From Solidesulfovibrio carbinoliphilus subsp. oakridgensis (GTDB lineage Bacteria; Desulfobacterota; Desulfovibrionia; Desulfovibrionales; Desulfovibrionaceae): DNA of 64,000 bases. The stretch is from positions 1,860,001-1,924,000 of the forward strand of contig NZ_CM001368.1 of NCBI RefSeq assembly GCF_000177215.2. Reading direction: 5' to 3'. Each line of letters opens with the position of its first letter. Within the stretch, counting starts at the first letter, position 1. Shown piece after piece: positions 7,453 to 21,471 of the stretch. Both the position numbers and the translations under genes were made by a program. The notes under the pieces were generated by a model. That model did not search any database. It had not been told where the DNA came from and saw only the letters and a list, made by a program, of their open reading frames with translations.

Positions 7453-8208
7453 TTACAATTCGTTCTTGCGGGTTTCTCCGTTATTTTTGTCGATTCCGTT
7501 CCCCGGGTGGCGCAGTTCGGCCACCAGCGGCAGGTGGTCCGAGCAGGTGGCGTAGGCGGGCCGGTGGCGGCGAAGGCTGGTCAGGGCCAGTCCCGGCGAG
7601 GTCCAGATCCGGTCCAGGGACAGGACCGGAAAGCAGGACGGAAAAGTGGCCGGCGCGGGCGTGGCCCCAAGCTCGCGGCTTACTGCCCGCACCGTGCGGT
7701 TGGCCGGCATCCACTCGTTGAAGTCGCCAAGGAGGACCGTGGGCACGTCCTGCCGCTCCCGGACCAGGGCGAGCAGGGCCTCGGTCTGGATCCGCCGTTC
7801 CCTGGCCCGCAGCCCGAGATGGGTGGCGATGACCCGGAGCCTGCCTCCGGGCACGGCCAGGACCACCTCCACCGCCCCACGCGGTTCGCAGCCCCGGACA
7901 CTCAGGTCATGGCCCCGCGACTGCTCCACCGGGAAACGGGTAAGGAGCGCGTTGCCGTACTCGGTCCCCAGGCGCGTGAGGGTCGGGCCGGACACGGCAT
8001 GCATGCCGAGCGGCCCGGCCACGGCCCGCTCCAGGCACTCCTCCTCGATCAGCGGCGGCATGACCACCTCCTGCAGGGCCACCACGTCCGCAGCCAGCTC
8101 CCGGATGGTTTCCACGAATCGGCCGATATCCCGCCGGCCGCCGAGGCTCTTCCAGCCGTGGACGTTGTAGGTGGCCACCCGCAGGAGCGCGCCGGGCCCG
8201 GCGTTCAC
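7453..8208 (-). CDS. Endonuclease/exonuclease/phosphatase family protein
   Basis: A 251-residue protein with the metal-dependent EEP fold: ATYNVHGW near the N-terminus, ALQEV (metal-binding Glu), THLGLR, LLGDFNEW (catalytic Asp-Asn) and SDHLPL at the C-terminus. I chose the GTG at 8208, whose bases overlap the TGA of the upstream gene as GTGA and which is preceded by GGAGGAGAG. No signal peptide is evident. Members cleave nucleic acids or phosphodiesters in lipids or sugars. Coupling to a phospholipase D-VTT gene hints at lipid headgroup chemistry, but that is inference. Confidence 0.88.
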   Translation of the reverse strand: MNAGPGALLRVATYNVHGWKSLGGRRDIGRFVETIRELAADVVALQEVVMPPLIEEECLERAVAGPLGMHAVSGPTLTRLGTEYGNALLTRFPVEQSRGHDLSVRGCEPRGAVEVVLAVPGGRLRVIATHLGLRARERRIQTEALLALVRERQDVPTVLLGDFNEWMPANRTVRAVSRELGATPAPATFPSCFPVLSLDRIWTSPGLALTSLRRHRPAYATCSDHLPLVAELRHPGNGIDKNNGETRKNEL

Positions 8209-10337
8209 GGCTGCTCTCCTCCGGTCCGGTCCCGGGCCTCGTCCTGGTCCCGGCGCAGGCGCTTTCGGACCAGCAGGGAAACGAGCAGCAGGGCCCCGGC
8301 CGCGAGCAGGAACAGGCTCAGGTTCCGCCAGCCGGGCTGGACAATGGCCTGGCGCAGGCGGTCGGTAAAAAGGGACAGGATGACGATGCCGGGCGCCATG
8401 CCGAGAAACGTGCCGAGCATGAACCGGCCAAAGGGCAGGTGCGAGGCCCCGGCCACCATGTTTATGATCGAGAACGGAGCCACGGGCACGAGCCGCACGA
8501 ACATGACGGCCAGGACGCCGAGCGAGGCCAGGTGGCGGCTTAGGCGATTGAGGCGCCGGCCGGCCAGCCGCCGGATGGTGCCCCGGCCAAGCCCGGCCCC
8601 GAGCCAGTAGGTGACGGCGCTGGCCGCCAGGCAGCCGGCCAGGGACTGGAAGATGCCGGAAAAGGGCGGGAAAACCAGGGCCATGCCGGCGATAAGGACC
8701 GAAACCGGGAAAAGGACCAGGCTTGCGGCCACATAGATGCCGACGACGACAAGAGGGGTCAGCGGCCCCTGCTCCACGGACCGCAGCCACGCGACCATAG
8801 TGCGGGGGCTGACCAGCCCGGAGAGCGGCGTGAAGCGCCAGAGAAGGGCCAGGACGGCCAGGGCGGCCACGCTGGTAAAAAGGATGAACATGCTGCGCCC
8901 GCCCCCCCGCCGGGGGTCGTCCACGAAGGCGTCCATCAGCCGGTCCACCTGCCCGGGACGCTCCGGGTCGAGGGACAGGGACAGCTCCGTGAGCGGGACC
9001 GGGGGAACCTGGTCGGGATAGGCGAAAGGCCGCATGCCGCCGGTCCGGGCGGCCAGTTCCGCGACCCGGCGCAAGAGGCCCGTGCCGTCGGCCGGGAGAT
9101 CGGCCAGCTCCTCCGGGGACACGCGCAGGTGCTCGGCCAGCAGCCTGGACCGGACCGCGCCGATGGCCCGGGTCACGGCCTCGTCGCCGCCGCTCTCCAG
9201 GGCCAGGTCGCATTCCGTGTCGAGGCCCATGGACCGGTTGTTGAGGTTGGCCGACCCGACCCGCAGGAAGGTGCCGTCCACGATCATGAGCTTGGAGTGG
9301 ACCTTGACGTAGCCGTCGTCGTCTCCGGGCGGCAGGGGATAATAGAGGCCCAGGCGCCCGTGCCGGTCGGCCCGGCCGAGGACCGTCCCGACCTTGGCCT
9401 GCAAGACGCCCATGACGTTCTCTTCGAGCCAGCCCACGGGCTGCCGGGGCAGGACGATGACGATCTCCGGCCCGTCCGGCTCCTCCAGGCGGCGGGCGAG
9501 GGCCTCCTCCACGCACACGGCCGTGAGATACTGGTTCTCGATGTAGATGCTGTGCCGGGCCGCCTCGATGGCGGCCAGAAAGAGGGCCTCCACCTCCCGG
9601 ACCTCGGGCCGGCCCTTGAAGGCCGGTTCCGTGCGGGCGATGGCCACCGGGATGTCGGTGAATTCGGGGACCAGGCTTTCCGGCCAGACCGCGCCGACGC
9701 TTCGGGCCGGCGCCGGCCGGACGCCGAGGCTTCGGTGCCACCGTTCCCGGGCCAGGTCGCCCAGAGCCCGGGCGGCCGGTCCGCCGACCGCCATCTGGAT
9801 GTCGTGAAAGGGCGGATAGGGCAGGCCGTCCGGATCCACCCGCAGCGGCTGGCGGCTGTCGTGGCCCGGCAGGTCCCAGCGCCGCTTGGTCAGGTCCAGG
9901 CCGCCGACAAAGGCCAGGGCGTCGTCGATGACCACGATCTTCTGGTGGTGGGACGCGCCGAGCGGATGCTCGGCGTCCATGGCGAAGCGGATCAGCCGGT
10001 GGGAATTCCAGCCCAGGTCGAAGACCGGCATGAACTGCCGTTCCATGGCGAAGAGCATGCCGAAATCCCAGGTCAGGATATAGACCCGGACATGGTTTTT
10101 GGCCGCGATTTCATTGAGGCGCGGGCCGAGTCGATGCTCCCGGCCCTCCCCCGGCCGTCCGGACAGGACCATGCGGCTGTCGATCTCCCAGCCAAGGATC
10201 CAGACCGAATCCCGGGCCGCCTCCAGGGCCTCGTCCAGGGCCTGGAAGTACAGGTCCCCGTCCACGACGACGGCCGCCTTGTCCGCGCGCTCGATGCGCT
10301 GGCAGGTGCGGCCTGGCTCAAGCAGGGTATGTTCCAT
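8205..10337 (-). CDS. Phospholipase D-like protein fused to a VTT (DedA/SNARE-associated) membrane domain
   Basis: A protein of about 710 residues with two parts. The N-terminal half has two HKD motifs: HHQKIVVIDD (around residue 130) and HSKLMIVDG followed by GSANLNNRS (around residue 340), the paired active site of the phospholipase D superfamily. The C-terminal 230 residues are hydrophobic and carry the VTT-type pattern (YWLGAGLGRGTIRRLAG, VRLVPVAPFSIINMVAGAS). Such fusions may process or move phospholipids at the inner membrane. The ATG at 10337 is family-consistent although its ribosome site is weak. Its stop overlaps the next gene by four bases, so the two form an operon. Confidence 0.88.
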   Translation of the reverse strand: MEHTLLEPGRTCQRIERADKAAVVVDGDLYFQALDEALEAARDSVWILGWEIDSRMVLSGRPGEGREHRLGPRLNEIAAKNHVRVYILTWDFGMLFAMERQFMPVFDLGWNSHRLIRFAMDAEHPLGASHHQKIVVIDDALAFVGGLDLTKRRWDLPGHDSRQPLRVDPDGLPYPPFHDIQMAVGGPAARALGDLARERWHRSLGVRPAPARSVGAVWPESLVPEFTDIPVAIARTEPAFKGRPEVREVEALFLAAIEAARHSIYIENQYLTAVCVEEALARRLEEPDGPEIVIVLPRQPVGWLEENVMGVLQAKVGTVLGRADRHGRLGLYYPLPPGDDDGYVKVHSKLMIVDGTFLRVGSANLNNRSMGLDTECDLALESGGDEAVTRAIGAVRSRLLAEHLRVSPEELADLPADGTGLLRRVAELAARTGGMRPFAYPDQVPPVPLTELSLSLDPERPGQVDRLMDAFVDDPRRGGGRSMFILFTSVAALAVLALLWRFTPLSGLVSPRTMVAWLRSVEQGPLTPLVVVGIYVAASLVLFPVSVLIAGMALVFPPFSGIFQSLAGCLAASAVTYWLGAGLGRGTIRRLAGRRLNRLSRHLASLGVLAVMFVRLVPVAPFSIINMVAGASHLPFGRFMLGTFLGMAPGIVILSLFTDRLRQAIVQPGWRNLSLFLLAAGALLLVSLLVRKRLRRDQDEARDRTGGEQP

Positions 10338-10746
10338 CACATCCGATCGGCAGGGCCTCTGGTTGCGAAAAAAGAGCGGGCGAAGCCACTTCGCCGCCGG
10401 CCCCGCCGCCCGGCCACGGGGCCGGCGGCCTCCGGGCGGCGGGGGTCTCCCACGAAGCTCCATTCTTGCCCGGTTTCGCGGACGCGAACCAGCTTTTTTT
10501 TTCTCCCACCGGCCGGAGGCCGCCGATCGTGGCCGCCCGGCCTCTGGTCCGGATCGAAAAACATCCACCCGGGCGTATCCATGGACTTTCCCGGACCGAC
10601 CCCCTGAGTGGCCGGCCGGAACGGACGGCGGCCGCGTCGGCGAAAGAGCGGGCCCGGACCGCGTTTTTTTCCCCTGGCCCGTTGGACAATCCCGGCATTC
10701 GTGGTTAAAGAAAGCCGATAGGACGCACCACGTGGAATACAAAACC
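10338..10746. other. 409-base intergenic region without a recognisable gene
   Basis: This lies between two divergently transcribed genes. It is GC-rich with short runs of T and A. Open frames inside it have no ribosome site and no recognisable protein. A possible plus-strand promoter is listed separately. Confidence 0.6.
10682..10710 (+). promoter_or_regulatory. Possible sigma-70-type promoter for the DUF1571-like gene
   Basis: TTGGAC at 10682-10687 and TTAAAG at 10705-10710 are separated by 17 bases and lie about 35 bases before the start codon. The -10 match is partial, so this is a candidate only. Confidence 0.3.
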
Positions 10747-11559
10747 ATGCCAGAAAATATGAAATACCCCCGTTTTCAAGAAGCTTCCCTCCCCCTCCCC
10801 ACGTTTTTTCCCCGTCGTGGCAGGTTTGGCCGGTCCGTCTGGCTGGTCACTGCACTGGCGCTCCTGTGGCTGGCCGCCTTCCAGAGTCCGGCCCTGGCCT
10901 CGGACCCGAAACAAGAGCTGATGGACCTGCTCGGCAGGATGGAATCGAGCTACGCCAAAATCGTGGACTACTGCGCCATCTTCCAGAAGAAGGAGCGGGT
11001 GAAAAAAGTCCTTTTGCCCGAGGAATTCATTACGCTCAAATTCCGCAAACCCTTGCAGGTCTATATGAAATGGCTCCACGGCCCGACCAAGGAAGCCATT
11101 TACGTGGACGGCGCCAACAGCAACAAGGTCGTGGCCCACAGCGACGGCGCGGGCGCCGGCCTGACCTGGAACCTGGACCCGAAAGGGTCCGTCCTGCGGG
11201 CTGACAACCGCCACGTCATCACGGACATCGGTTTCGGCTTCATCATCCAGATGATGCGCGAAAACATTCCGACGGCCATCCGCCACTCCGAACTCGGCGT
11301 CAGCGATCTGGCCGACACCGTGTTCGAGGGCCGGCCGTCCACCGTGTTCGAGGTCACCTTCTCGCCCAAGGAAGGCCGCACCTACTACGCCAGCCGCATC
11401 GTCTGCCACGTGGACAAGGAATTTCTCATGCCGATCGGGATCACCTGCTACGATGAGAAAGGCGACCTCGTGGAACAGTACCGCTACAAGGACGTCAAGA
11501 TAAACGTCGGCCTGACGGACCAGGACTTTTCCAGGAAGAATCCCGCCTACAAGTTCTAG
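10747..11559 (+). CDS. Exported DUF1571-like protein
   Basis: A 270-residue protein with an N-terminal hydrophobic stretch (VTALALLWLAAFQSPALA, about residues 32-49) that looks like a signal peptide. The mature part begins with KQELMDLLGRMESSYAKI and continues with beta-rich sequence (DYCAIFQKKERV, FRKPLQVYMKWL), which fits the DUF1571 family and its distant LolA/LolB-like barrel. The function is not established; such proteins are thought to act on lipids or lipoproteins in the periplasm. A second ATG four codons later (10759) is an alternative start. It stands alone between the divergent PLD operon and a chemoreceptor gene. Confidence 0.72.
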   Translation: MPENMKYPRFQEASLPLPTFFPRRGRFGRSVWLVTALALLWLAAFQSPALASDPKQELMDLLGRMESSYAKIVDYCAIFQKKERVKKVLLPEEFITLKFRKPLQVYMKWLHGPTKEAIYVDGANSNKVVAHSDGAGAGLTWNLDPKGSVLRADNRHVITDIGFGFIIQMMRENIPTAIRHSELGVSDLADTVFEGRPSTVFEVTFSPKEGRTYYASRIVCHVDKEFLMPIGITCYDEKGDLVEQYRYKDVKINVGLTDQDFSRKNPAYKF

Positions 11560-11813: not shown

Positions 11814-13352
11814 ATGAAACGCCTGCCGCTCGTCACCGCCATCCTCCTAAACGCCGTCCTCCTGTCCGCCAGCGCCCTGGCCGGCGGCGGCGTGCTGTCC
11901 TTCTGCCTCCTCGGGCTGGCCTTCGCCGTGGGCACGGGATTCCTCCTGTGGACCGACAGCCGGATCCAGACGGCCTTCGCCTGCGTGTCCCAGACGTTCG
12001 CCTCCATGACCGCCAATCGGTTCGACTGCGGCCTCAAAGACGACCCGCTCCTTTGCGTGGAAGACCTTCGCGACGCCATGGCCCCCCATGAGGCCACCCT
12101 CAAGGAGCGCCTCAGCCGCGACGAGGCCATGATCGGCAACATCATCACGCCCATGGCCATAGTCGACGAAAAGGGCGGCCTCAAATGGCTCAACGAGTCC
12201 ATGGTCCGCCTGACCGAAAACGACGGTCCGCCTGAAAAGCACCTCGGCGGCAACTTCGCCCTCTTTTTCTACGGCAAGTCCCAGGACACCGTGGTCGGCA
12301 AGGCCATCCGCGAGAAATCCCGCCAGACCTCCAAGACGGAATTCGATACCCGCAAGGGCAACCACAAATACATCAGCATTTTCGCGACCCCCATCCTCGA
12401 TTTCGACGGCAAGCTTATCGGCGGCTTCGTGTCCGTGGCCGACTTTACGGGCGTGGTGCTCAAGGAACGGACCATCACCGAGCAGAACCAGCGCATCGCC
12501 ATGGGCGTGGCCGACGCCACGGCCGTGTCCGAGAACCTGGCCGCCGCGGCCGAACAGATGACCAGCCAGATCGCCCGCTCCACCGAGGGCATGGAAGACC
12601 AGCGCGCGCGCACGGCCGAAGTGGCGACCGCCATCGAGGAGATGAACGCCACCATCCTGGAGGTGGCCAGAAATGCCGGCGACGCCGCGACCACGGCCGG
12701 CCACGCCAACGCCATGGCCACCACCGGCGCCGCACTCGTCGAGCGGGTCATCACGGTCATGGAGTCGGTCAACGCCAAGGCCACCGGCCTCAAGTCCGAA
12801 ATGCAGGACCTCGGCGACCAGGCCCAGGGCATCGGCCAGATCATGCAGGTCATCTCCGACATCGCCGACCAGACCAACCTCTTGGCCTTAAACGCCGCCA
12901 TCGAGGCGGCCCGGGCCGGCGAGGCCGGACGGGGATTCGCGGTCGTGGCCGACGAGGTCCGAAAGCTCGCGGAAAAGACCATGACCGCCACCAAGGAGGT
13001 CAGCAACTACATCCGCGCCATCCAGGAAAGCGCCCGCCGCAACATGGCCGCCACCGACGAGACCAGCCAGGTCATCGAGGACGCCGACGCCCTGGCCCAC
13101 AAGGCCGGCGACGCCCTGCGCCAGATCCTCGAATTCGTGGAAAAGACCTCCGACCAGGTGCGCGGCATCGCCACCGCCGCCGAACAGCAGTCGGCCACCT
13201 CCGAGGAGATCAACCGGTCCACCGACCAGATCAACCGCATTGCCGAAGATACGGCCGGAACCATGTCGCTGGCCTCCTCGGCCGTGTCCGACCTGGCCCA
13301 CCTGGCTTCCGATCTCAAGACGTCCATGACGCGGATGCGCCTTTCGCAGTAG
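11814..13352 (+). CDS. Methyl-accepting chemotaxis protein with PAS-like sensor, little periplasmic domain
   Basis: A 512-residue chemoreceptor. Two closely spaced hydrophobic segments (about residues 5-24 and 28-45) leave almost no periplasmic part. A cytoplasmic PAS-like region follows (about 100-205, with [17 protein letters not shown]). The last 290 residues are the MCP signalling coiled coil with the conserved hairpin tip ([18 protein letters not shown]) that contacts CheA and CheW. It probably senses a cytoplasmic or membrane signal such as redox state. No CheR-binding pentapeptide is seen at the C-terminus (it ends TRMRLSQ). AAGGAGA precedes the ATG. Confidence 0.92.
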
Positions 13353-13385: not shown

Positions 13386-13414
13386 TTGACATGCCGGGCC
13401 GCCCGGCATAGCTG
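13386..13414 (+). promoter_or_regulatory. Possible promoter with operator palindrome for the Ehr operon
   Basis: TTGACA at 13386-13391 is followed by the perfect palindrome ATGCCGGGC-C-GCCCGGCAT at 13391-13409, which fills the 17-base spacer exactly. The -10 position (TAGCTG) is weak. The palindrome may be a repressor or activator site, or only a hairpin after the preceding chemoreceptor gene; there is no U-run. Confidence 0.4.
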
Positions 13415-13482
13415 CGAGCGACTCGGGGCGATCTCGTGCCCGCGCCGGCGGATCGGCCGGCATCGCTTGAAAGGGAAATGCC

Positions 13483-15483
13483 ATGGAAATTTTCGAGGCC
13501 TCGCTGGCGCTGTACCTGCTCGGCGCGCTCGGCGCGCTCGGCCTGTCCGGCCGTGACGCGGCCAGCCGTGTCGGGGCGGCCGGGGCCCTGGCCGGGTCGC
13601 TTGTGGGCCTCTCCGGCGTGCTCGGCGCTCCGGCCAGTGCCGCCACCCAGATCGCGCTTCCCTGGGGCCTGCCCATCGGCGGCCTGCTCCTCGGCCTCGA
13701 CCCGGCCAGCCGCCTGTTTCTCATCCCGGTCTACCTGCTCGGCGCGGCCTGCGCCGTGGCCGGCGCGGCCGCCATGGCCGGCCATCTGGCCCACAACGGC
13801 CGGGGAAAGCTCGGGCCGCACTGGTTCTTCTTCAACCTCCTCCTCGCCGGACTGGCCCTGGTCATGGCCGCCCGCGATGCCGTCACCTTTCTCATCGCCT
13901 GGGAGCTCATGTCCCTGGCCCCGTTTTTCCTCATAAGCTTTCACGACGACGAGGCCGAGGTCCGCGAGGCGGCCTGGATCTATCTCGTGGCCGCCCACCT
14001 CGGTGCGGTCTGCGTCATGGCCTTTTTCGCCGCCTTCTGGGCCGCAGCCGGGGGCACGTCCTTCGAGGCCCTGGCCCAGGCCGCGGCAGGCGGCCAGCTC
14101 GCCGCGCCGTCGGTCCTGTTCCTCCTGGCCCTGGCCGGATTCGGGGCCAAGGCCGGCTTTTTCCCCTTCCACGTCTGGCTGCCGGAAGCCCATCCGGCCG
14201 CCCCGAGCCACGTCTCGGCCGTGCTGTCCGGGGCCATGATCAGCGCCGGCCTCTACGGCCTGTGGCGGGCCGCGGAGCTGCTCGGACCGGCCGCCGTCTG
14301 GTGGGGCTGGACCCTGGTTGCCGTCGGCCTCGTCTCCGCCGTTTCGGGTATCCTGCAGGCCCTGGCCCAGGGGAACCTCAAGCGCCTGCTCGCCTATTCC
14401 AGCGTGGAAAACATGGGGCTGGCCTGCCTGGGCCTCGGCCTCGGCCTGGTCGGCCGCCAGGCCGGCAACGAAACCATCGCCGTGCTCGGCCTGTCCGGCG
14501 CGGTCTTTCATGTGCTGAACCACGCGGCCTTCAAGGGCCTTCTTTTCCTATGCGCCGGCGAGGTCCTCCACAGTGTGGGCAGCGTGCGCATCGCCCACCT
14601 GGGCGGCCTTGGCAAGCGCATGCCCGTGGTCGGCGCCGCCTTTGCCCTGGCCTCCCTCGGCATCGCCGGCCTGCCGCCCTTGTCCGGCTTTGCCGGGGAG
14701 CTGGTCCTGGCCCTGGCCATGCTCGAAGGCCTGACCACCGCCGGCCTGCCCGGGCTGCTGCCCCGGGTCGGCATGGCCGCCGCCCTGGTCGTGCTGGCGG
14801 CCGTCGGCGGGCTGGCCCTGGCCGCCTTTGCCAAGGCCGCCGGCCTGTCGTTTCTCGGCGAGCCCCGGACCCCGGCCGCGGCCAAGGCCGCCCCGGCCGG
14901 TCGCGCGGCCCGCACGGCCCTCCTGTTTCTTTGCCTGTGCATTGTCGCCGCCGCCGTCTGCGCCCCGCTGCTCCTGTCCCTGTCCGGCCAGGCGGCCCTG
15001 GCCTTTCCCGGCCTGGACCCGGCCCCGGCCCGGGCCGCCCTGGCCCAGGCCACCGGCATCCTGTGGACCGTGGGCGCGGTTTTCCCCTGTCTGGCCATTC
15101 TGGCCGGGGGTCTCCTCTGCGTCCGGTCGCGCCTTTTGGCCAAAAACGGCCTGCGCTGGGGACCCACCTGGGGCTGCGGCTACACCGCCTCCTCCCCCCG
15201 CATCCAGTACGGCCAAGCCTCCTTTGCCGAGCCGGCGGCCCGGATCTTCGGCCGGGCCATGGGCCTGACCCGCCGCCTGGACCTGGACCCGGGCTATTTC
15301 CCGGCCTGGGGGCGGCTGGCGGTGGCCAGTCCCGACCGGCTGAAAAACACGGTCTTCCTCCCTCTTTTCGAAGCCGTCGGCCGGGTCTGCGACGCCATGA
15401 AGGTGGTGCAGCACGGCCGGGTCCATCTTTACATCCTCTACGTCCTGGCCACGGTCGTGCTGCTTCTGGCCTGGAAGCTCTAA
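13483..15483 (+). CDS. Proton-pumping membrane subunit of hydrogenase-4-like (Ehr) complex, HyfB-like
   Basis: A 666-residue polytopic protein of the NuoL/M/N antiporter-like family with about 16 hydrophobic segments. The charged residues typical of the proton channel lie in LIAWELMSLAPFF (Glu in TM5), KAGFFPFHVWLPEAHPAAPS and LAYSSVENMG. The long C-terminal extension (RWGPTWGCGYTASSPRIQYGQASFAEP) is typical of HyfB/HycC rather than NuoL. It starts the operon after an AAAGGGA ribosome site and is followed four bases later by the HyfC-like gene. It should translocate protons or sodium when driven by the peripheral arm. Confidence 0.92.
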   Translation: MEIFEASLALYLLGALGALGLSGRDAASRVGAAGALAGSLVGLSGVLGAPASAATQIALPWGLPIGGLLLGLDPASRLFLIPVYLLGAACAVAGAAAMAGHLAHNGRGKLGPHWFFFNLLLAGLALVMAARDAVTFLIAWELMSLAPFFLISFHDDEAEVREAAWIYLVAAHLGAVCVMAFFAAFWAAAGGTSFEALAQAAAGGQLAAPSVLFLLALAGFGAKAGFFPFHVWLPEAHPAAPSHVSAVLSGAMISAGLYGLWRAAELLGPAAVWWGWTLVAVGLVSAVSGILQALAQGNLKRLLAYSSVENMGLACLGLGLGLVGRQAGNETIAVLGLSGAVFHVLNHAAFKGLLFLCAGEVLHSVGSVRIAHLGGLGKRMPVVGAAFALASLGIAGLPPLSGFAGELVLALAMLEGLTTAGLPGLLPRVGMAAALVVLAAVGGLALAAFAKAAGLSFLGEPRTPAAAKAAPAGRAARTALLFLCLCIVAAAVCAPLLLSLSGQAALAFPGLDPAPARAALAQATGILWTVGAVFPCLAILAGGLLCVRSRLLAKNGLRWGPTWGCGYTASSPRIQYGQASFAEPAARIFGRAMGLTRRLDLDPGYFPAWGRLAVASPDRLKNTVFLPLFEAVGRVCDAMKVVQHGRVHLYILYVLATVVLLLAWKL

Positions 15484-15486
15484 GCC

Positions 15487-16386
15487 ATGAACACGCTGCT
15501 CCACCTCCTTGTGGCCCTTGTCCTGGCCCCGCTCATTCCCGGCATCATCAACCGGGTCAAGGCCAAGGTTGGCGGCCGGGCCGGCAAGCCGCTCTTCCAG
15601 ACCTATTTCGACCTGGCCAGGCTCGTCCGCAAGGGCGCGGTCATAAGCACCACCACGTCCTGGGTCTTTGCCGCCGGTCCGAGCCTGTCCCTGGCCGCCG
15701 TGGCCTGCGCCCTGCTCCTCCTGCCGGGTCCGGGCGCGGCCGCCCCTCTCTCCTTTGCCGGGGACTTCATGTTCATGGCCTACCTGCTCGGCCTGTCCCG
15801 GCTGGCCCTGCTCCTGGCCGCCCTGGACACCGGATCGAGCTTCGAGGGCATGGGCGCCAGCCGCGAGGCCGTTTTCTCCGCCCTGGCCGAACCGGTCCTG
15901 TTCCTCTGTTTTCTGAGCCTGGCCGCCGACACCTCGGGCCTGTCCCTGTCAGCCATGCTCGGCCCCGGCCCGGTCGGCCCCCTGGCTCCGGAGCGGCTTT
16001 TCGTGCCGGCCATCCTCTTTGTCCTCCTTTTGGCCGAAAATTCCCGCATCCCGGTGGACGACCCCAACACCCACCTGGAGCTGACCATGATCCACGAGGT
16101 CATGGTCCTTGACCACTCCGGGCCGGACATGGCCGCCATCGTCTATGGCGCCTCGCTCAAGCTGTGGCTGTTCTGCTCGCTGACCGCCCTCTCCATGACC
16201 CCGGTGGCAAGCCTGTCCCCGGTGGCCGCCTGGGGCGCCTGGCTGGTCCTGGTCTTTGTCGTGGCCGTGGCCGTAGGACTCGTGGAGTCGGGCATGGCCC
16301 GGCTGCGCATGGAGCGCGTGCCGCGCCTCCTCGGCGGGGCCGGGGCCCTGGTCGCCTTGTCCCTGGTCCTTACGGTGTGGAGGTAG
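15487..16386 (+). CDS. Membrane anchor subunit of Ehr-type complex, HyfC/NuoH-like
   Basis: A 299-residue membrane protein of the NuoH/HycD/HyfC family with about eight hydrophobic segments. Diagnostic pieces are GIINRVKAKVGGRAGKPLFQTYFDLARLVRKG near the N-terminus (described by its pattern; key residues are the RVKA and YxDLxRLxxKG elements) and AENSRIPVDDPNTHLELTMIHEVM in the centre, with the acidic residues that line the quinone-like cavity in complex I. It links the peripheral hydrogenase-like arm to the pump subunits. Spacing to both neighbours is only a few bases. Confidence 0.92.
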   Translation: MNTLLHLLVALVLAPLIPGIINRVKAKVGGRAGKPLFQTYFDLARLVRKGAVISTTTSWVFAAGPSLSLAAVACALLLLPGPGAAAPLSFAGDFMFMAYLLGLSRLALLLAALDTGSSFEGMGASREAVFSALAEPVLFLCFLSLAADTSGLSLSAMLGPGPVGPLAPERLFVPAILFVLLLAENSRIPVDDPNTHLELTMIHEVMVLDHSGPDMAAIVYGASLKLWLFCSLTALSMTPVASLSPVAAWGAWLVLVFVVAVAVGLVESGMARLRMERVPRLLGGAGALVALSLVLTVWR

Positions 16387-16389
16387 CCG

Positions 16390-17040
16390 GTGGAACTCTT
16401 TCAGTCCGTCATGGTGGCCCTGGTCTGCGTCAACCTGGCCTACCTGGCCATCACGCGCCTTCGCACGCTCACCCGCCTGACCGCCGTCCAGGGGGCGCTC
16501 CTGGCCCTGGTGCCGCTCCTGTTCGCCGGCCCGGAAACCGGCGTCGGCCACGGCCATGCCCTGTTCCTGTCCCTGGCCGTCTTCGCCATCAAGGGCGTTG
16601 GGTTCCCGTGGCTCCTGGCCCGGACTCTCTCGCGCCTGGAAGTCAACCCCGTGGTCGAGCCCTACCTCGGCTTCAACCTGTCGCTGGTGGCCGGGGTGGC
16701 GGGCCTGCTGTTTTCCCTGTGGCTGGAAACCAGGCTGCCCTTTCCGCCGGGCCTTTTCCCGCCGCTCCTTTTCCCGGCAGCCCTGACCACGATTTTCACC
16801 GGCCTGACCCTGGTCATTGCCCGGCAAAAGGCGCTCACCCAGGTCATCGGTTATCTGGCCGCCGAAAACGGCATCTTTCTCCTCGGCACCCCGCTTTCCG
16901 GCCAGGGTTCGGTCTGGCTGGAACTGTCCGTGCTCCTCGACGTCTTCGTGGCCGTCTTCGTCATGGGCATCGCCCTCCACCACATCAGCAAGACCTTCGA
17001 GTCCATCGACGTCGGCCGGTTTTGCAGCCTTCGGGATTGA
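16390..17040 (+). CDS. HyfE-like membrane subunit of Ehr-type complex
   Basis: A 216-residue hydrophobic protein with about six membrane segments, resembling HyfE, which corresponds to a NuoK-like part. Landmarks are VIARQKALTQVIGYLAAENGIF, with the buried Glu seen in NuoK, and LLDVFVAVFVMGIALHHI. It begins with GTG at 16390, four bases after the previous stop; an ATG seven codons later is an alternative. The HyfF-like gene starts five bases after its stop. Confidence 0.86.
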   Translation: MELFQSVMVALVCVNLAYLAITRLRTLTRLTAVQGALLALVPLLFAGPETGVGHGHALFLSLAVFAIKGVGFPWLLARTLSRLEVNPVVEPYLGFNLSLVAGVAGLLFSLWLETRLPFPPGLFPPLLFPAALTTIFTGLTLVIARQKALTQVIGYLAAENGIFLLGTPLSGQGSVWLELSVLLDVFVAVFVMGIALHHISKTFESIDVGRFCSLRD

Positions 17041-17045
17041 CCACC

Positions 17046-18521
17046 ATGCTTGAGGCCCTGCCGCTTGTTCCCCTCCTGGCCGCCCTGCTCGTCCTGGCCC
17101 TTCCGGCCGACGGGCCGCGCCGGGCCGTCTTGATCCTGACCGCCCTGACCCACGCCGCCCTGGTCGCGGCCACCTTCGTCTGGCCCCCGGCTCCGGCCTA
17201 CGGCGGACTCCTGGAGCTCGACGCCCCGGGCCAGCTGTTCCTGGCCCTGGCCAGCGTCCTCTTTCTGGCCGCCTCGGTCTACGCCGCCGGGTATCTGCGC
17301 CACGAAGGGGCCGGTCCCAAGCGCGACTTCCAGGACGGCGCGGCCTTTGTGAACGCCCCGGAGCGCATCTTCACCATGTGCCTGTGCTTTTTCCTGGCCG
17401 CCATGACCGTGGTCTGCGCCACGCGCAACCTGTCGGTCCTCTGGGTCGGCATCGAGGCCACTACGCTTTCGAGCGCCCCGCTCATCTACTTCCACCGCCA
17501 CCGCCGGTCGCTGGAGGCCACCTGGAAGTATCTGGTCATCTGCTCGGTCGGCATCGCCCTGGCGCTCCTTGGCAACATCCTTTTTTCCGTCGCCTTCTAC
17601 GATCCGGCCAGTCCGCTGGCCTCCATGAACCTCTCCGGCATGCTCCCCCGGGCGGCTCTCGCCGCCAAGCCCTGGCTGCGGGCCGCCTTCATCTTCGTCC
17701 TGGTCGGCTACGGCTCGAAAATGGGCCTGGCTCCCATGCACAACTGGCTGCCCGACGCCCACAGCCAGTCGCCTTCCCTGGTCTCGGCCCTGCTCTCCGG
17801 CGCGCTTTTGAACTGCGCCTTCCTCGGCATCCTGCGGGCCAACCAGGTCCTTTGCGCCGCGGACATGGGCGCCTTTAGCGGGGAGCTCCTCATCCTGTTC
17901 GGGCTTATTTCCATGGCCACGGCCGCCGTGTTCGTGGTCGGCCAGGGCGACTACAAGCGGCTGCTGGCCTATTCGAGCGTGGAGCACATGGGCATCCTGG
18001 CCCTTGGCGTCGGCGTCGGCGGCGGCGCGGCCTTCGGGGCCATGCTCCACGCGGTCAACCACTCCCTGACCAAGGGCGCGCTCTTTCTCCTGTCCGGCAA
18101 CATCCTGGCCGTGTACCACACCCGGTCCTGCCACGACGCCAGAGGCGTCGCCCAGGCCCTGCCCGTCACGGCCGCCCTGTGGATGGCCGGGTTCCTGGCC
18201 ATCTGCGGCTCGCCGCCGTTCGGCATCTTCGTCAGCGAGCTGACGATCCTCAAAACCATGCTCACGACCGGGCACGTGGCCGCCGCCATCGGCTACCTCG
18301 TTTTATTGGCCGTCATCTTCGTCGGCATGTCCGTGCCGGTGGCCCGCATGGTCCAGGGGCCCCTGCCCCCGGCCACGGCCCGGCCCGGCCGCGAGGGCCT
18401 GCTCGCCGTGGCCCCCCCCCTGGCCCTTTTGGCCGCCACCCTGGCCCTTGGCCTCTATCTGCCCAGGGCCCTCACCGCATTTCTGCACCAGGCGGCCGCC
18501 GCCGTGGCCATGGGAGGCTAG
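17046..18521 (+). CDS. Second proton-pumping subunit of Ehr-type complex, HyfF-like
   Basis: A 491-residue antiporter-like protein of the NuoL/M/N family with about 14 hydrophobic segments. Channel landmarks are LWVGIEATTLSSAPLIY (TM5 Glu), GYGSKMGLAPMHNWLPDAHS (Lys and His) and LLAYSSVEHMGILALG. The frame extends far upstream, but the ATG at 17046 matches the family N-terminus and follows the HyfE-like stop by five bases. A complex with two such pump subunits is expected to conserve energy at more than one site. Confidence 0.92.
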   Translation: MLEALPLVPLLAALLVLALPADGPRRAVLILTALTHAALVAATFVWPPAPAYGGLLELDAPGQLFLALASVLFLAASVYAAGYLRHEGAGPKRDFQDGAAFVNAPERIFTMCLCFFLAAMTVVCATRNLSVLWVGIEATTLSSAPLIYFHRHRRSLEATWKYLVICSVGIALALLGNILFSVAFYDPASPLASMNLSGMLPRAALAAKPWLRAAFIFVLVGYGSKMGLAPMHNWLPDAHSQSPSLVSALLSGALLNCAFLGILRANQVLCAADMGAFSGELLILFGLISMATAAVFVVGQGDYKRLLAYSSVEHMGILALGVGVGGGAAFGAMLHAVNHSLTKGALFLLSGNILAVYHTRSCHDARGVAQALPVTAALWMAGFLAICGSPPFGIFVSELTILKTMLTTGHVAAAIGYLVLLAVIFVGMSVPVARMVQGPLPPATARPGREGLLAVAPPLALLAATLALGLYLPRALTAFLHQAAAAVAMGG

Positions 18522-18524
18522 GCC

Positions 18525-20009
18525 ATGGAATTTTCCCACCACACCGGTCTGGCCCTGGCCGACGTGCCGGTCCTGGCCCTTGAGGATTTTCGCCGGCTGC
18601 TCCTGTCCCGCGTGGCCGACGGCTGGCGCGTGCTGGCCCTTTTCGGGCTGCCGGCCGGGGGTGGCGCGGCCGGTCTGGCCGCCGTCTGCGGCCGCGACCA
18701 CGACGGCCGGCTGGCCTTTTGCCGCACCGCCCCGCTCGACCGCTACCCCTCGCTCACCCCGGACTGCCCCCAGTGCCACTGGTTCGAGCGGGAACTCTAC
18801 GAGCAGTGGGGCATCCTGCCGGACGGCCACCCCTGGCTCAAACCCATCCGCTTCACCACGCCGCCCGGGGCCGGCCGGCCGCGCCCGGCCCCGGGCGTGA
18901 CCGACTACTTCCAGGTCCGGGGCGAGGAGGTCCACGAGGTGGCCGTGGGACCGGTCCATGCCGGCATCATCGAGCCCGGCCACTTCCGGTTCCAGTGCTT
19001 CGGCGAGGAGGTCTTCCACCTGGAAATCAGCCTCGGGTTCCAGCACCGGGGCATCGAGGCCATGCTCGCCGGCGGCCCGGACCCGCGCACCGTGCACTTC
19101 ATGGAAACCGCCGCCGGCGACACGTCCATCGGCCATTCCCTGGCCCACGCCGCGGTCATCGAGGCCCTCTCCGGCCGGACCGCGCCCCCGCGCGGCCGGG
19201 CCATCGGCCGGGCGGCCCTGGAACTCGAACGCCTGGCCAACCACACTGGCGACCTCGGGGCCCTGGCCGGGGACGTCGGCTTTTTGCCGACACTCTCCTA
19301 CTGCGGCCGGATCCGGGGCGATTTTTTGAACATGACCGCCCTTTTGTGCGGCAACCGGTTCGGCCGGGGGCTGGTGCGGCCGGGCGGCACGGCCTTTGAC
19401 GTGGACACCGGCCTCCTGCGGGTCCTCGCCGGCCGCCTGGAGGCCGCCCGACGGGCCGCTTTCGGGGCCGCCGAGCTTCTTTTCGCCTCCTCCACGGTCC
19501 TGGCCCGGTTCGAGGGCACGGGCAAACTCACCGCCGAAAAGGCCCTGGACCTGGGCCTGGTCGGGCCGCCGGCCCGGGCCTGCGGCCTGGCCCGCGACGC
19601 CAGGCGGACCTTTCCCCAGCCCGGGGCCGGGGCCAGGGACATCGCCCTCTCGCTCCACGATTTCGGCGACGTCTACGCCCGGGGACTGGTACGCCGCCTG
19701 GAAATGGAGGCCTCCCTCGACTTCCTGGACGGGCTCCTGGCCGACCTGCCGGACGGTCCGACCCGGGAGCTTTTGCCCGGGCGCCTGCCGCCCGGCCGCC
19801 TGGCCGTGGGTCTGATCGAAGGCTGGCGCGGGGAAATCCGCCACGTGGCCGTGACCGGCCCGGACGGGCGCTTTCTGGCCTACAAGATCATCGACCCGTC
19901 CTTTCACAACTGGTTCGGCCTGGCCCAGGCCCTGCGCGGCCAGCAGATTTCGGATTTTCCGCTGTGCAACAAGAGCTTCAACCTCTCGTACTGCGGCCAC
20001 GACCTGTAG
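18525..20009 (+). CDS. Large catalytic-type subunit of Ehr complex (HyfG/NuoCD-like) lacking NiFe ligands
   Basis: A 494-residue fusion of a NuoC-like domain (residues about 1-115, with WFERELYEQWGILPDGHP) and a NuoD/HycE-like large-subunit domain. In NiFe hydrogenases of group 4 the metal is held by two CxxC motifs. Here the N-terminal motif position reads ETAAGDT (residues 194-200), with Ala197 and Thr200 where cysteines belong. The C-terminal one reads FNLSYCGHDL (485-494), keeping only C490. Three of four ligands are therefore missing and hydrogenase activity is not expected. This is the hallmark of energy-converting hydrogenase-related (Ehr) complexes. The true electron acceptor is unknown. 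Confidence 0.9.
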   Translation: MEFSHHTGLALADVPVLALEDFRRLLLSRVADGWRVLALFGLPAGGGAAGLAAVCGRDHDGRLAFCRTAPLDRYPSLTPDCPQCHWFERELYEQWGILPDGHPWLKPIRFTTPPGAGRPRPAPGVTDYFQVRGEEVHEVAVGPVHAGIIEPGHFRFQCFGEEVFHLEISLGFQHRGIEAMLAGGPDPRTVHFMETAAGDTSIGHSLAHAAVIEALSGRTAPPRGRAIGRAALELERLANHTGDLGALAGDVGFLPTLSYCGRIRGDFLNMTALLCGNRFGRGLVRPGGTAFDVDTGLLRVLAGRLEAARRAAFGAAELLFASSTVLARFEGTGKLTAEKALDLGLVGPPARACGLARDARRTFPQPGAGARDIALSLHDFGDVYARGLVRRLEMEASLDFLDGLLADLPDGPTRELLPGRLPPGRLAVGLIEGWRGEIRHVAVTGPDGRFLAYKIIDPSFHNWFGLAQALRGQQISDFPLCNKSFNLSYCGHDL

Positions 20010-20019
20010 GGAAACGCCC

Positions 20020-20781
20020 ATGCTCCATATTCTCGCCGAACGTCTGCGCCAGGGCCGGCGGACCGTCGCCTTCCCGAAAAACGTGCCCGACCTGCCGCCG
20101 CGCTTCCGGGGCCTGCCCGTGCTCTCGCCCGGACCCTGCGCCACGGACTGCGCCTCCTGCGCCGGCACCTGCCCGACCGGGGCCCTCGGCGCGGACGAGG
20201 CCGGCCTCTTCCTCGATCTCGGCAAGTGCATCTTCTGCGGCACCTGCGCCACGGCCTGCCCGGCCGGCCGGGTGGCCTTCAGCCAGGACCACCGGCTGGC
20301 CTCCGACACCCGCGAGGGCCTGGTCCTGCGCCCGGGCACCCGCCCCCACGTCTCACCGCTCGACCCGGCCCGCCGCCGGCTCTTCGCCCGGTCGCTCAAA
20401 CTCCGGCAGGTCAGCGCCGGCGGTTGCAACGCCTGCGAGGCCGACCTCAACGTGCTGACCACCGTCGTCTTCGACCTCGGCCGCTTCGGCATCGATTTCG
20501 TGGCCTCGCCGCGCCACGCCGACGGCGTGGCCGTGACCGGCCCGGTGACCGTCAATATGCTGGCCGCCACCCGCGCCACCTTCGACGCCGTGCCCGACCC
20601 GCGCGTCGCCATCGCGGTCGGGGCCTGCGCCATCTCGGGCGGCGTCTTTGCCGGGAGCCCCGAGACCACGGGCGGAGCCACGCCGCACCTGCCGGTCGAT
20701 CTCTTCATCCCCGGCTGTCCGCCCCATCCCCTGACCATCCTCGACGGCCTGCTGTCCCTGCTCGGCATCCCCACGCCCTGA
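20020..20781 (+). CDS. Fused ferredoxin / small subunit of Ehr complex (HyfH-HyfI-like)
   Basis: A 253-residue iron-sulfur protein. The N-terminal part has two [4Fe-4S] motifs: C40, C44, C47, C51 and C70, C73, C76, C80, each ending in Cys-Pro. This is the job usually done by separate HyfH/NuoI. From about residue 125 it is a NuoB/HyfI-like small subunit with all four ligands for the proximal cluster: C136, C139 (GGCNACE), C203 (GACAISGG) and C233 (PGCPPHP). The electron path is therefore intact even though the large subunit has lost its NiFe site. It closes the operon and is followed by a terminator. Confidence 0.9.
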   Translation: MLHILAERLRQGRRTVAFPKNVPDLPPRFRGLPVLSPGPCATDCASCAGTCPTGALGADEAGLFLDLGKCIFCGTCATACPAGRVAFSQDHRLASDTREGLVLRPGTRPHVSPLDPARRRLFARSLKLRQVSAGGCNACEADLNVLTTVVFDLGRFGIDFVASPRHADGVAVTGPVTVNMLAATRATFDAVPDPRVAIAVGACAISGGVFAGSPETTGGATPHLPVDLFIPGCPPHPLTILDGLLSLLGIPTP

Positions 20782-20783
20782 AG

Positions 20784-20828
20784 CCCGGTCCGGCCGGCCA
20801 AATACCCGCTCGGACCGGGGTCTTTCTT
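20784..20828 (+). terminator. Rho-independent-type terminator after the Ehr operon
   Basis: CCCGGTCCG (20784-20792) pairs perfectly with CGGACCGGG (20811-20819) across an 18-base loop and is followed by TCTTTCTT. It lies three bases after the last stop codon of the operon. Confidence 0.65.
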
Positions 20829-20919
20829 GCGCCGGCCGGGCAAAATGTGCACAATGCCCCATCACGCGGCATCCGCCTCGCCGCTTCGTGTCCACCGGAA
20901 CCACTGCCAAGGAGTCCCC

Positions 20920-21471
20920 ATGCCCAAAGCCACGGATTTCACGCTCTTTAGCGGCGGCGCCCAGGGCGCCGAAGCCGAGTTCGGACGCCAGGCCGAGCTC
21001 CACGGCGTCCAGGAAATCAACTACACCTTCGAGGGCCACCGCATCGAGCGCACGCGCGGCATCCGCGTCCTGACCCAGGAGGAACTGGCCAAAAAGGACG
21101 TGAGCCTGACCTACGTCTCCAAACTCCTGTCGCGCAAATTCTCCAACGGCCCCCAGATCCGCATGGTCCTTCGCACCATCATGCACCAGATCGACGCGGG
21201 CCTGGAAATCTTCGTGGTCGGCACCATCCAGGACGACGGCACGGTCAAGGGCGGCACGGGCTGGGGCGCGGAGTTCGCCAAGATCTGCAACAAGCCGCTT
21301 TTCGTCTTCTGCCAGGAAAAAGCCGGCTGGTTCACCTGGGAAAACGACGCCTGGGCCCCCGCTTCCGGGCCGACCATCACCCACTCCCACTTCACGGGCA
21401 CCGGCACCCGGTTCCTGGAAGACTCGGGCAAGGCGGCCATCGCCGCCCTGTACGAACGGTCGTTCGGGTAG
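20920..21471 (+). CDS. SLOG-like (Rossmann-type nucleotide-binding) protein of unknown function
   Basis: A 183-residue cytoplasmic protein. FSGGAQGAEAEFGRQAE near the N-terminus resembles the SGGxxGAD-type start of YspA/DprA/LOG-like SLOG proteins. GGTGWGAEFAKICNKPLFVF in the second half resembles the glycine-rich nucleotide or nucleotide-sugar binding element. No catalytic function can be assigned. I took the ATG at 20920, preceded by AAGGAG, rather than upstream in-frame ATGs in the leader. It converges on the aminotransferase-fold gene, with the repeat/hairpin array between them. Confidence 0.72.
   Translation: MPKATDFTLFSGGAQGAEAEFGRQAELHGVQEINYTFEGHRIERTRGIRVLTQEELAKKDVSLTYVSKLLSRKFSNGPQIRMVLRTIMHQIDAGLEIFVVGTIQDDGTVKGGTGWGAEFAKICNKPLFVFCQEKAGWFTWENDAWAPASGPTITHSHFTGTGTRFLEDSGKAAIAALYERSFG

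Follow-up and report, generated by a model that had tools for sequence, protein, structure and literature searches.

Loss of the NiFe ligands in an Ehr operon of Solidesulfovibrio carbinoliphilus and the reaction that may drive its ion pumps

What does a relative of the group 4 hydrogenases do once the ligands of its NiFe center are gone? This question is raised by an operon for an energy-converting hydrogenase-related (Ehr) complex in Solidesulfovibrio carbinoliphilus subsp. oakridgensis. The operon lies in a stretch of 64,000 nucleotides (contig NZ_CM001368.1, positions 1,860,001 to 1,924,000), called the window here, where it occupies positions 13483-20781. A first-pass annotation had seen six co-directional Ehr genes there without a NiFe site. 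The coordinates, the intergenic gaps of 3-10 bases, and the domain matches support an intact operon of six genes, and the Ehr identity is upheld by the gene set, by a large subunit free of NiFe ligands, and by a clade shared with Geobacter and Geomonas loci. Judged by sequence, the operon is a further member of the already described Ehr family.

Loss of the NiFe ligands and the remodeled pocket

Domain searches with Pfam and NCBIfam matched the operon products to Proton_antipo_M (twice), NADHdh, a hydrogenase-4 membrane subunit, Complex1_49kDa with 30kDa, and Oxidored_q6 with Fer4. All genes are on the + strand. The first four are ehrA (13483-15483, 666 aa), a HyfB/HycC-like antiporter subunit assigned by its domains and by alignment; ehrB (15487-16386, 299 aa), a HyfC/NuoH-like membrane anchor with the NADHdh domain; ehrC (16390-17040, 216 aa), a HyfE-like membrane subunit with the hydrogenase-4 match; and ehrD (17046-18521, 491 aa), a HyfF-like antiporter subunit with its pump residues retained. 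They are followed by ehrL (18525-20009, 494 aa), which domains, alignment, and a structural model identify as a HycE/NuoCD-like large subunit without NiFe ligands, and by ehrS (20020-20781, 253 aa), a HycF-like 2[4Fe-4S] domain fused to a HycG/NuoB-like small subunit.

EhrL was aligned with HycE, HyfG, the host's Ech, and three NuoD-type proteins. A197 and T200 occupy the exact columns of the first CxxC (A197-G198-D199-T200; 19113-19124, +), as the first-pass annotation had proposed. Its claim that C490 of the second CxxC is kept was one column off. In the gap-free alignment of SDFPLCNKSFNLSYCGHDL with SDAPLIIGSLDPCYSCTDR, the second-pair columns hold S488 and G491, and C490 lies between them, adjoining the column of the second ligand. 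Since C490 is not in a ligand column, none of the second pair is retained and the case against a NiFe center is stronger than had been stated. No cysteine is placed at any NiFe column by this alignment, so that all four ligands are, as read from it, gone. Both CxxC motifs are present in all 19 other group 4 large subunits sampled from the same bacterial family. Besides EhrL, the 4.22-Mb host genome (G000) has genes for a true Ech hydrogenase with both motifs (CGIC...CISC), for one NiFe hydrogenase of the periplasmic type, for a complex I of the NuoBCD type, and for a further NuoD-like protein. The ligand loss thus belongs to EhrL and not to the assembly or the host.

The lost ligands have been replaced by a clade signature, AGD[TSA] together with the C-terminal SDFPLCNKSFNLSYCGxDL. 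The latter (SDFPLCNKSFNLSYCGHDL in the window; 19950-20006, +) has S488 and G491 in the second CxxC positions and brings in two new cysteines, C481 and C490. The 101 EhrL orthologues compared span more than a dozen phyla, and in all of them G198, D199, S488, G491, E150, H145, H174, and R175 are invariant. C158 is found in 101 of the 101, C490 in 100, and C481 in 98, while position 197 is A, S, or C and position 200 is T, S, A, or V. Eighty loci were retrieved via the peptides CNKSFNLS and VGP[VI]HAG[IV]I, and the conservation of those two stretches is therefore partly selected in them; the same conservation was obtained with the family set from a whole-protein search, in which 114 positions are invariant across 30 Desulfovibrionaceae orthologues. 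The cavity that had been described as open is thus free of NiFe ligands, but evolution has not left it empty, since a new and nearly invariant set of residues is present. E150 (codon 18972-18974, +) aligns with the proton-transfer glutamate E21 of MbhL within a retained EPGHFR motif, which makes a proton path to the pocket plausible. Two further candidates were considered. C275 was rejected as an Ehr-specific ligand, as the host's Ech likewise has CGNR there, and an essential C481-C490 dithiol was weakened by an asparagine at position 481 in loci L072, L096, and L098.

An AlphaFold model of EhrL built from 22 sequences left the active-site loops below a pLDDT of 50. Sixty sequences mended most of these and gave a mean pLDDT of 91.1. 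The best PDB match of this model was HycE of formate hydrogenlyase (7z0s_E; Z 42.9, root-mean-square deviation 2.6, 479 residues), with the 49-kDa complex I subunits second (Z about 40).

The locus is not a chance occurrence, given full-length EhrL orthologues in about 50 of 149 Desulfovibrionaceae genomes and dN/dS values of 0.06-0.22 for close pairs within the genus; EhrL is under purifying selection. In a phylogenetic tree, the Ehr large subunits group as one clade (support 100/100) whose branch, about 4 changes per site long, sets it off from the group 4 hydrogenases and Nuo; some of the outgroup joins carry a long-branch warning. Geobacter and Geomonas loci L085 and L098 fall in this clade with the window protein (100/100); G. 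sulfurreducens itself was left out of the tree set. The gene order A-B-C-D-L-S is common to loci across phyla. Ehr complexes free of NiFe ligands have been described in Geobacter, Nitrospira, the Candidate Phyla Radiation, and sibling lineages of Cyanobacteria, with the function given as unknown or unproven, and a Desulfotomaculum complex filed as Ehr retains all four cysteines. The Geobacter complex (EhrA-1, A-2, B, C, L, S; GSU0739-0745) has the same gene set, order, and NiFe-ligand-free large subunit as the window operon, and Geobacter/Geomonas loci L081-L085 and L098 share its C-terminal signature. Natural N481 variants occur in L098 (Geomonas limicola), L072, and L096.

EhrS has an N-terminal HycF/NuoI-like two-cluster ferredoxin domain followed by a HycG/NuoB-like domain. 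The proximal-cluster ligands C136, C139, C203, and C233 (20425-20718, +), already listed by the first-pass annotation, align as four ligands with the CxxC spacing of hydrogenases, not the CC of NuoB. The fused HycF-like domain adds eight cluster cysteines that had gone unnoticed (C40, C44, C47, C51 and C70, C73, C76, C80; 20137-20259, +). Each of the twelve positions is retained in 88-94 of 95 orthologues, and the earlier view of an intact Fe-S electron path holds. EhrA keeps the NuoM counterparts in transmembrane helix (TM) 5 (Glu, WELMS) and TM7 (Lys, GAKAGFFP), the LKR Lys, and the TM12 Glu, and the NuoM Glu and Lys residues align in both antiporter-like subunits, EhrA and EhrD.

A NiFe center in Ehr would require the Hyp proteins, yet genomes without NiFe maturation also keep Ehr. 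HypD was absent from 6 of 30 Ehr-positive genomes in which it was sought, and a NiFe hydrogenase was also absent from two of the HypD-less genomes, G006 (a family member, 1.5 Mb, 100% complete) and G070 (97%). G006 has all six Ehr subunits intact at its locus L166, with an EhrL tail ending in SDFPLCNKSFNLSYCGHDL, and G070 retains the order A-B-C-D-L-S. NiFe maturation is therefore not needed for Ehr. In the small G006 genome, the Ehr large subunit is the sole protein of the NuoD/group 4 type, making L166 a minimal system for finding the partner.

Electron donor, acceptor, and competing explanations

The loss of all NiFe ligands in a complex that has stayed nearly unchanged in more than a dozen phyla implies another reaction coupled to ion pumping. 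We lean toward Ehr being a membrane-bound, redox-driven cation pump (probably for H+) that passes electrons from reduced ferredoxin to a small cytosolic acceptor at the remodeled pocket. Electrons from reduced ferredoxin would enter EhrS at its fused HycF-like domain and travel along the two [4Fe-4S] clusters of that domain until they reach the proximal cluster, which is N2-like. A site at the EhrL/EhrS interface (E150, H145/H153, D199, C490, and the C-terminal signature tail) would then reduce the acceptor with proton uptake, and the energy released would drive the antiporter-like EhrA and EhrD and EhrB/EhrC. We infer ferredoxin as the donor, the direction of electron flow, and assembly as one complex. 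No recurrent dehydrogenase or electron carrier was found among 119 flanking proteins of Ehr loci, so a diffusible donor is likely. The free energy available per 2 electrons has been given as about 41 kJ for the membrane-bound sulfane reductase (MBS), 12 for the one-pump membrane-bound hydrogenase, and 81 for complex I (PMC7684303). Ehr resembles MBS in its pump number, two, and by this analogy its acceptor should be distinctly more oxidizing than H+/H2. Our first guess, weakly held, is a sulfane or disulfide compound.

Several points weigh against this proposal. The electron donor could be an unlinked dehydrogenase, for example for formate, and proteomics of Geobacter found Ehr subunits at higher abundance in formate-grown cells than with H2 (PMC7894505). 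Three of the 101 orthologues have Asn in place of C481, against an essential C481-C490 dithiol. Also, the EhrL model has low certainty over residues 145-148 and 490-494, which leaves the spatial arrangement of the putative new site hypothetical.

The complex could also run in reverse. A cytosolic reductant would then bind where hydrogenases hold NiFe, and the proton motive force would lift its electrons to ferredoxin as a low-potential supply for biosynthesis. This architecture is reversible in principle, and the bacteria that carry Ehr differ widely in lifestyle and share no fixed partner gene. With two or three pumps, however, the reduction of ferredoxin would be costly. We consider reverse operation unlikely.

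An improbable explanation, despite its precedent, is an MBS-like enzyme that reduces sulfane or polysulfide at its proximal [4Fe-4S] cluster. MBS (6u8y) is the one characterized relative without a NiFe center (PMC7684303) and, like Ehr, has multiple pumps; the host's family includes Desulfovibrio. However, MBS retains two of the four cysteines, lacks the counterpart of MbhL E21 in its large subunit (PMC7684303), and needs a three-Cys proximal cluster for its mechanism. Ehr is the opposite on all three, with the E21 counterpart kept and four proximal ligands at hydrogenase CxxC spacing, and many of the bacteria that carry it are not known for sulfur reduction.

Another explanation is a ferredoxin:quinone oxidoreductase like Fpo or the photosynthetic complex I. 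Complex I (NuoB/CD/H/L/M) resembles Ehr in its fold, its pumps, and its NuoH-type anchor, and the EhrL fold is nearly as close to the 49-kDa subunits as to HycE. In contrast to complex I, Ehr has a proximal CxxC instead of CC and no NuoEFG, and the EhrL alignment shows I149 and G198 where Nqo4 has its quinone ligands H38 and Y87. If menaquinone were the acceptor, Ehr hosts would be expected to make it, and the menaquinone markers MqnA/D, MqnC, MenD, and MenB were scored against curated cut-offs in 20 Ehr genomes. None of these was above its cut-off in 14 genomes, which are mostly drafts, scored for menaquinone markers only, and include the single-contig family genome G138. The six marker-positive genomes include the window's host, which favors a quinone; two others, G127 and G147, were left out of one marker scan and are counted as positive through menB. 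G070, G127, and G147, relatives of G115/G138, have menB with menD below the cut-off. UbiA was uninformative as a quinone marker, as it was matched in 27 of 30 genomes. The same absence of menaquinone genes has been given for Riflemargulisbacteria (PMC6349859). The missing markers are moderate, not decisive, evidence against menaquinone as the acceptor, and suggest a dependence that is weak at most. We give a quinone acceptor little credence.

The probability is also small that Ehr is part of a super-complex with formate dehydrogenase, similar to formate hydrogenlyase without H2. Such a super-complex has been proposed for Saganbacteria and Riflemargulisbacteria (PMC6349859), and the rise of Ehr in formate-grown Geobacter (PMC7894505) would fit it. 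E. coli formate hydrogenlyase/hydrogenase-4 (HycE 7z0s_E; HyfBCEFGHI) is the best match in fold and sequence, with the same subunit types and the EPGHFR proton-path motif. Compared with it, the window Ehr has HycF and HycG fused and is without the CxxC pairs, the cleaved C-terminal extension, and HyfD, and its operon is without a HycB/formate dehydrogenase partner and HycI/HycH. A formate dehydrogenase gene does not recur beside the 101 Ehr loci, and nothing replaces HycB at the operon. Finally, descent from group 4 hydrogenases and one paper that regards the Geobacter Ehr as non-functional (PMC13194489) could suggest a decayed remnant or a cryptic hydrogenase that binds its metals in an unusual way. 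This is very improbable, because the whole clade has lost all four ligands, HypD-less genomes keep Ehr intact, and the family shows strong constraint (114 invariant residues in 30 members, dN/dS 0.06-0.22).

A recurrent HTH-EIIA gene and other neighbors

A gene encoding a fusion of a helix-turn-helix (HTH) domain with an EIIA domain of the phosphotransferase system (PTS), HTH_17-PTS_EIIA_2, was found at 30 of 59 loci with sufficient upstream sequence outside Desulfovibrionaceae and at 4 of 21 within. It is mostly on the same strand and directly 5' of the antiporter gene or genes (L056:3910-4680, L069:4230-4940, and L098:2088-2765, all +, and about 38 more copies). The GxxxPH phosphorylation motif is retained in 35 of 41 copies, and in the six genomes searched the best genome-wide match was the copy at the Ehr locus. 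This association suggests PTS(Ntr)-type control of Ehr; we found no mention of it in a literature search largely without subscription journals. Several Geobacter-type loci carry both this gene and a second EhrA-like antiporter. The window's genome is without both, and its only EIIA is a short PtsN-type protein away from the operon.

It is possible, though we think it rather doubtful, that the EhrL pocket is an undescribed catalytic center, built from the clade-specific D199, C490, C158/Q157, and K483 along with the retained E150/H145/H153 and possibly containing another metal or a redox-active thiol, that couples ferredoxin to a widespread cytosolic acceptor, and that in many bacteria a PTS(Ntr)-type regulator of its own controls the operon and so ties the pump to the phosphotransferase system.

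Upstream of ehrA, a candidate promoter with a weak -10 (TTGACA, 17 bases, TAGCTG; 13387-13415, +) was identified, and its TTGACA is also present in three relatives within the genus. A consensus promoter scan of the region detected no promoter, and no sigma-54 or FNR site was found there. A PAS-MCP chemoreceptor gene (11814-13352, +) lies directly 5' of ehrA, as it does in three other genomes of the genus. Just 3' of ehrS, a 214-aa protein (20827-21471, +) that is conserved at this place in the genus has a weak SLOG match (YAcAr, E 0.023) as its sole assignment. Further upstream, a reading frame on the opposite strand (8205-10748, -) combines a phospholipase D-like domain with a VTT (DedA-like) membrane domain.

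Place of Ehr among the complex I relatives

This analysis adds the corrected ligand columns, the clade signature, the independence from Hyp and NiFe hydrogenase, the weak-at-most dependence on menaquinone, the ferredoxin-type domain, and the HTH-EIIA association, which is a new lead on the regulation of Ehr. Genomes that have Ehr without Hyp, NiFe hydrogenase, or, in part, recognizable menaquinone genes narrow the candidates for its reaction. Ehr is among the few members of the complex I superfamily whose reaction awaits identification, and in the evolution of respiration it has a place between the hydrogenases and complex I. An active site that is nearly invariant over more than a dozen phyla shows that this reaction is specific and important.

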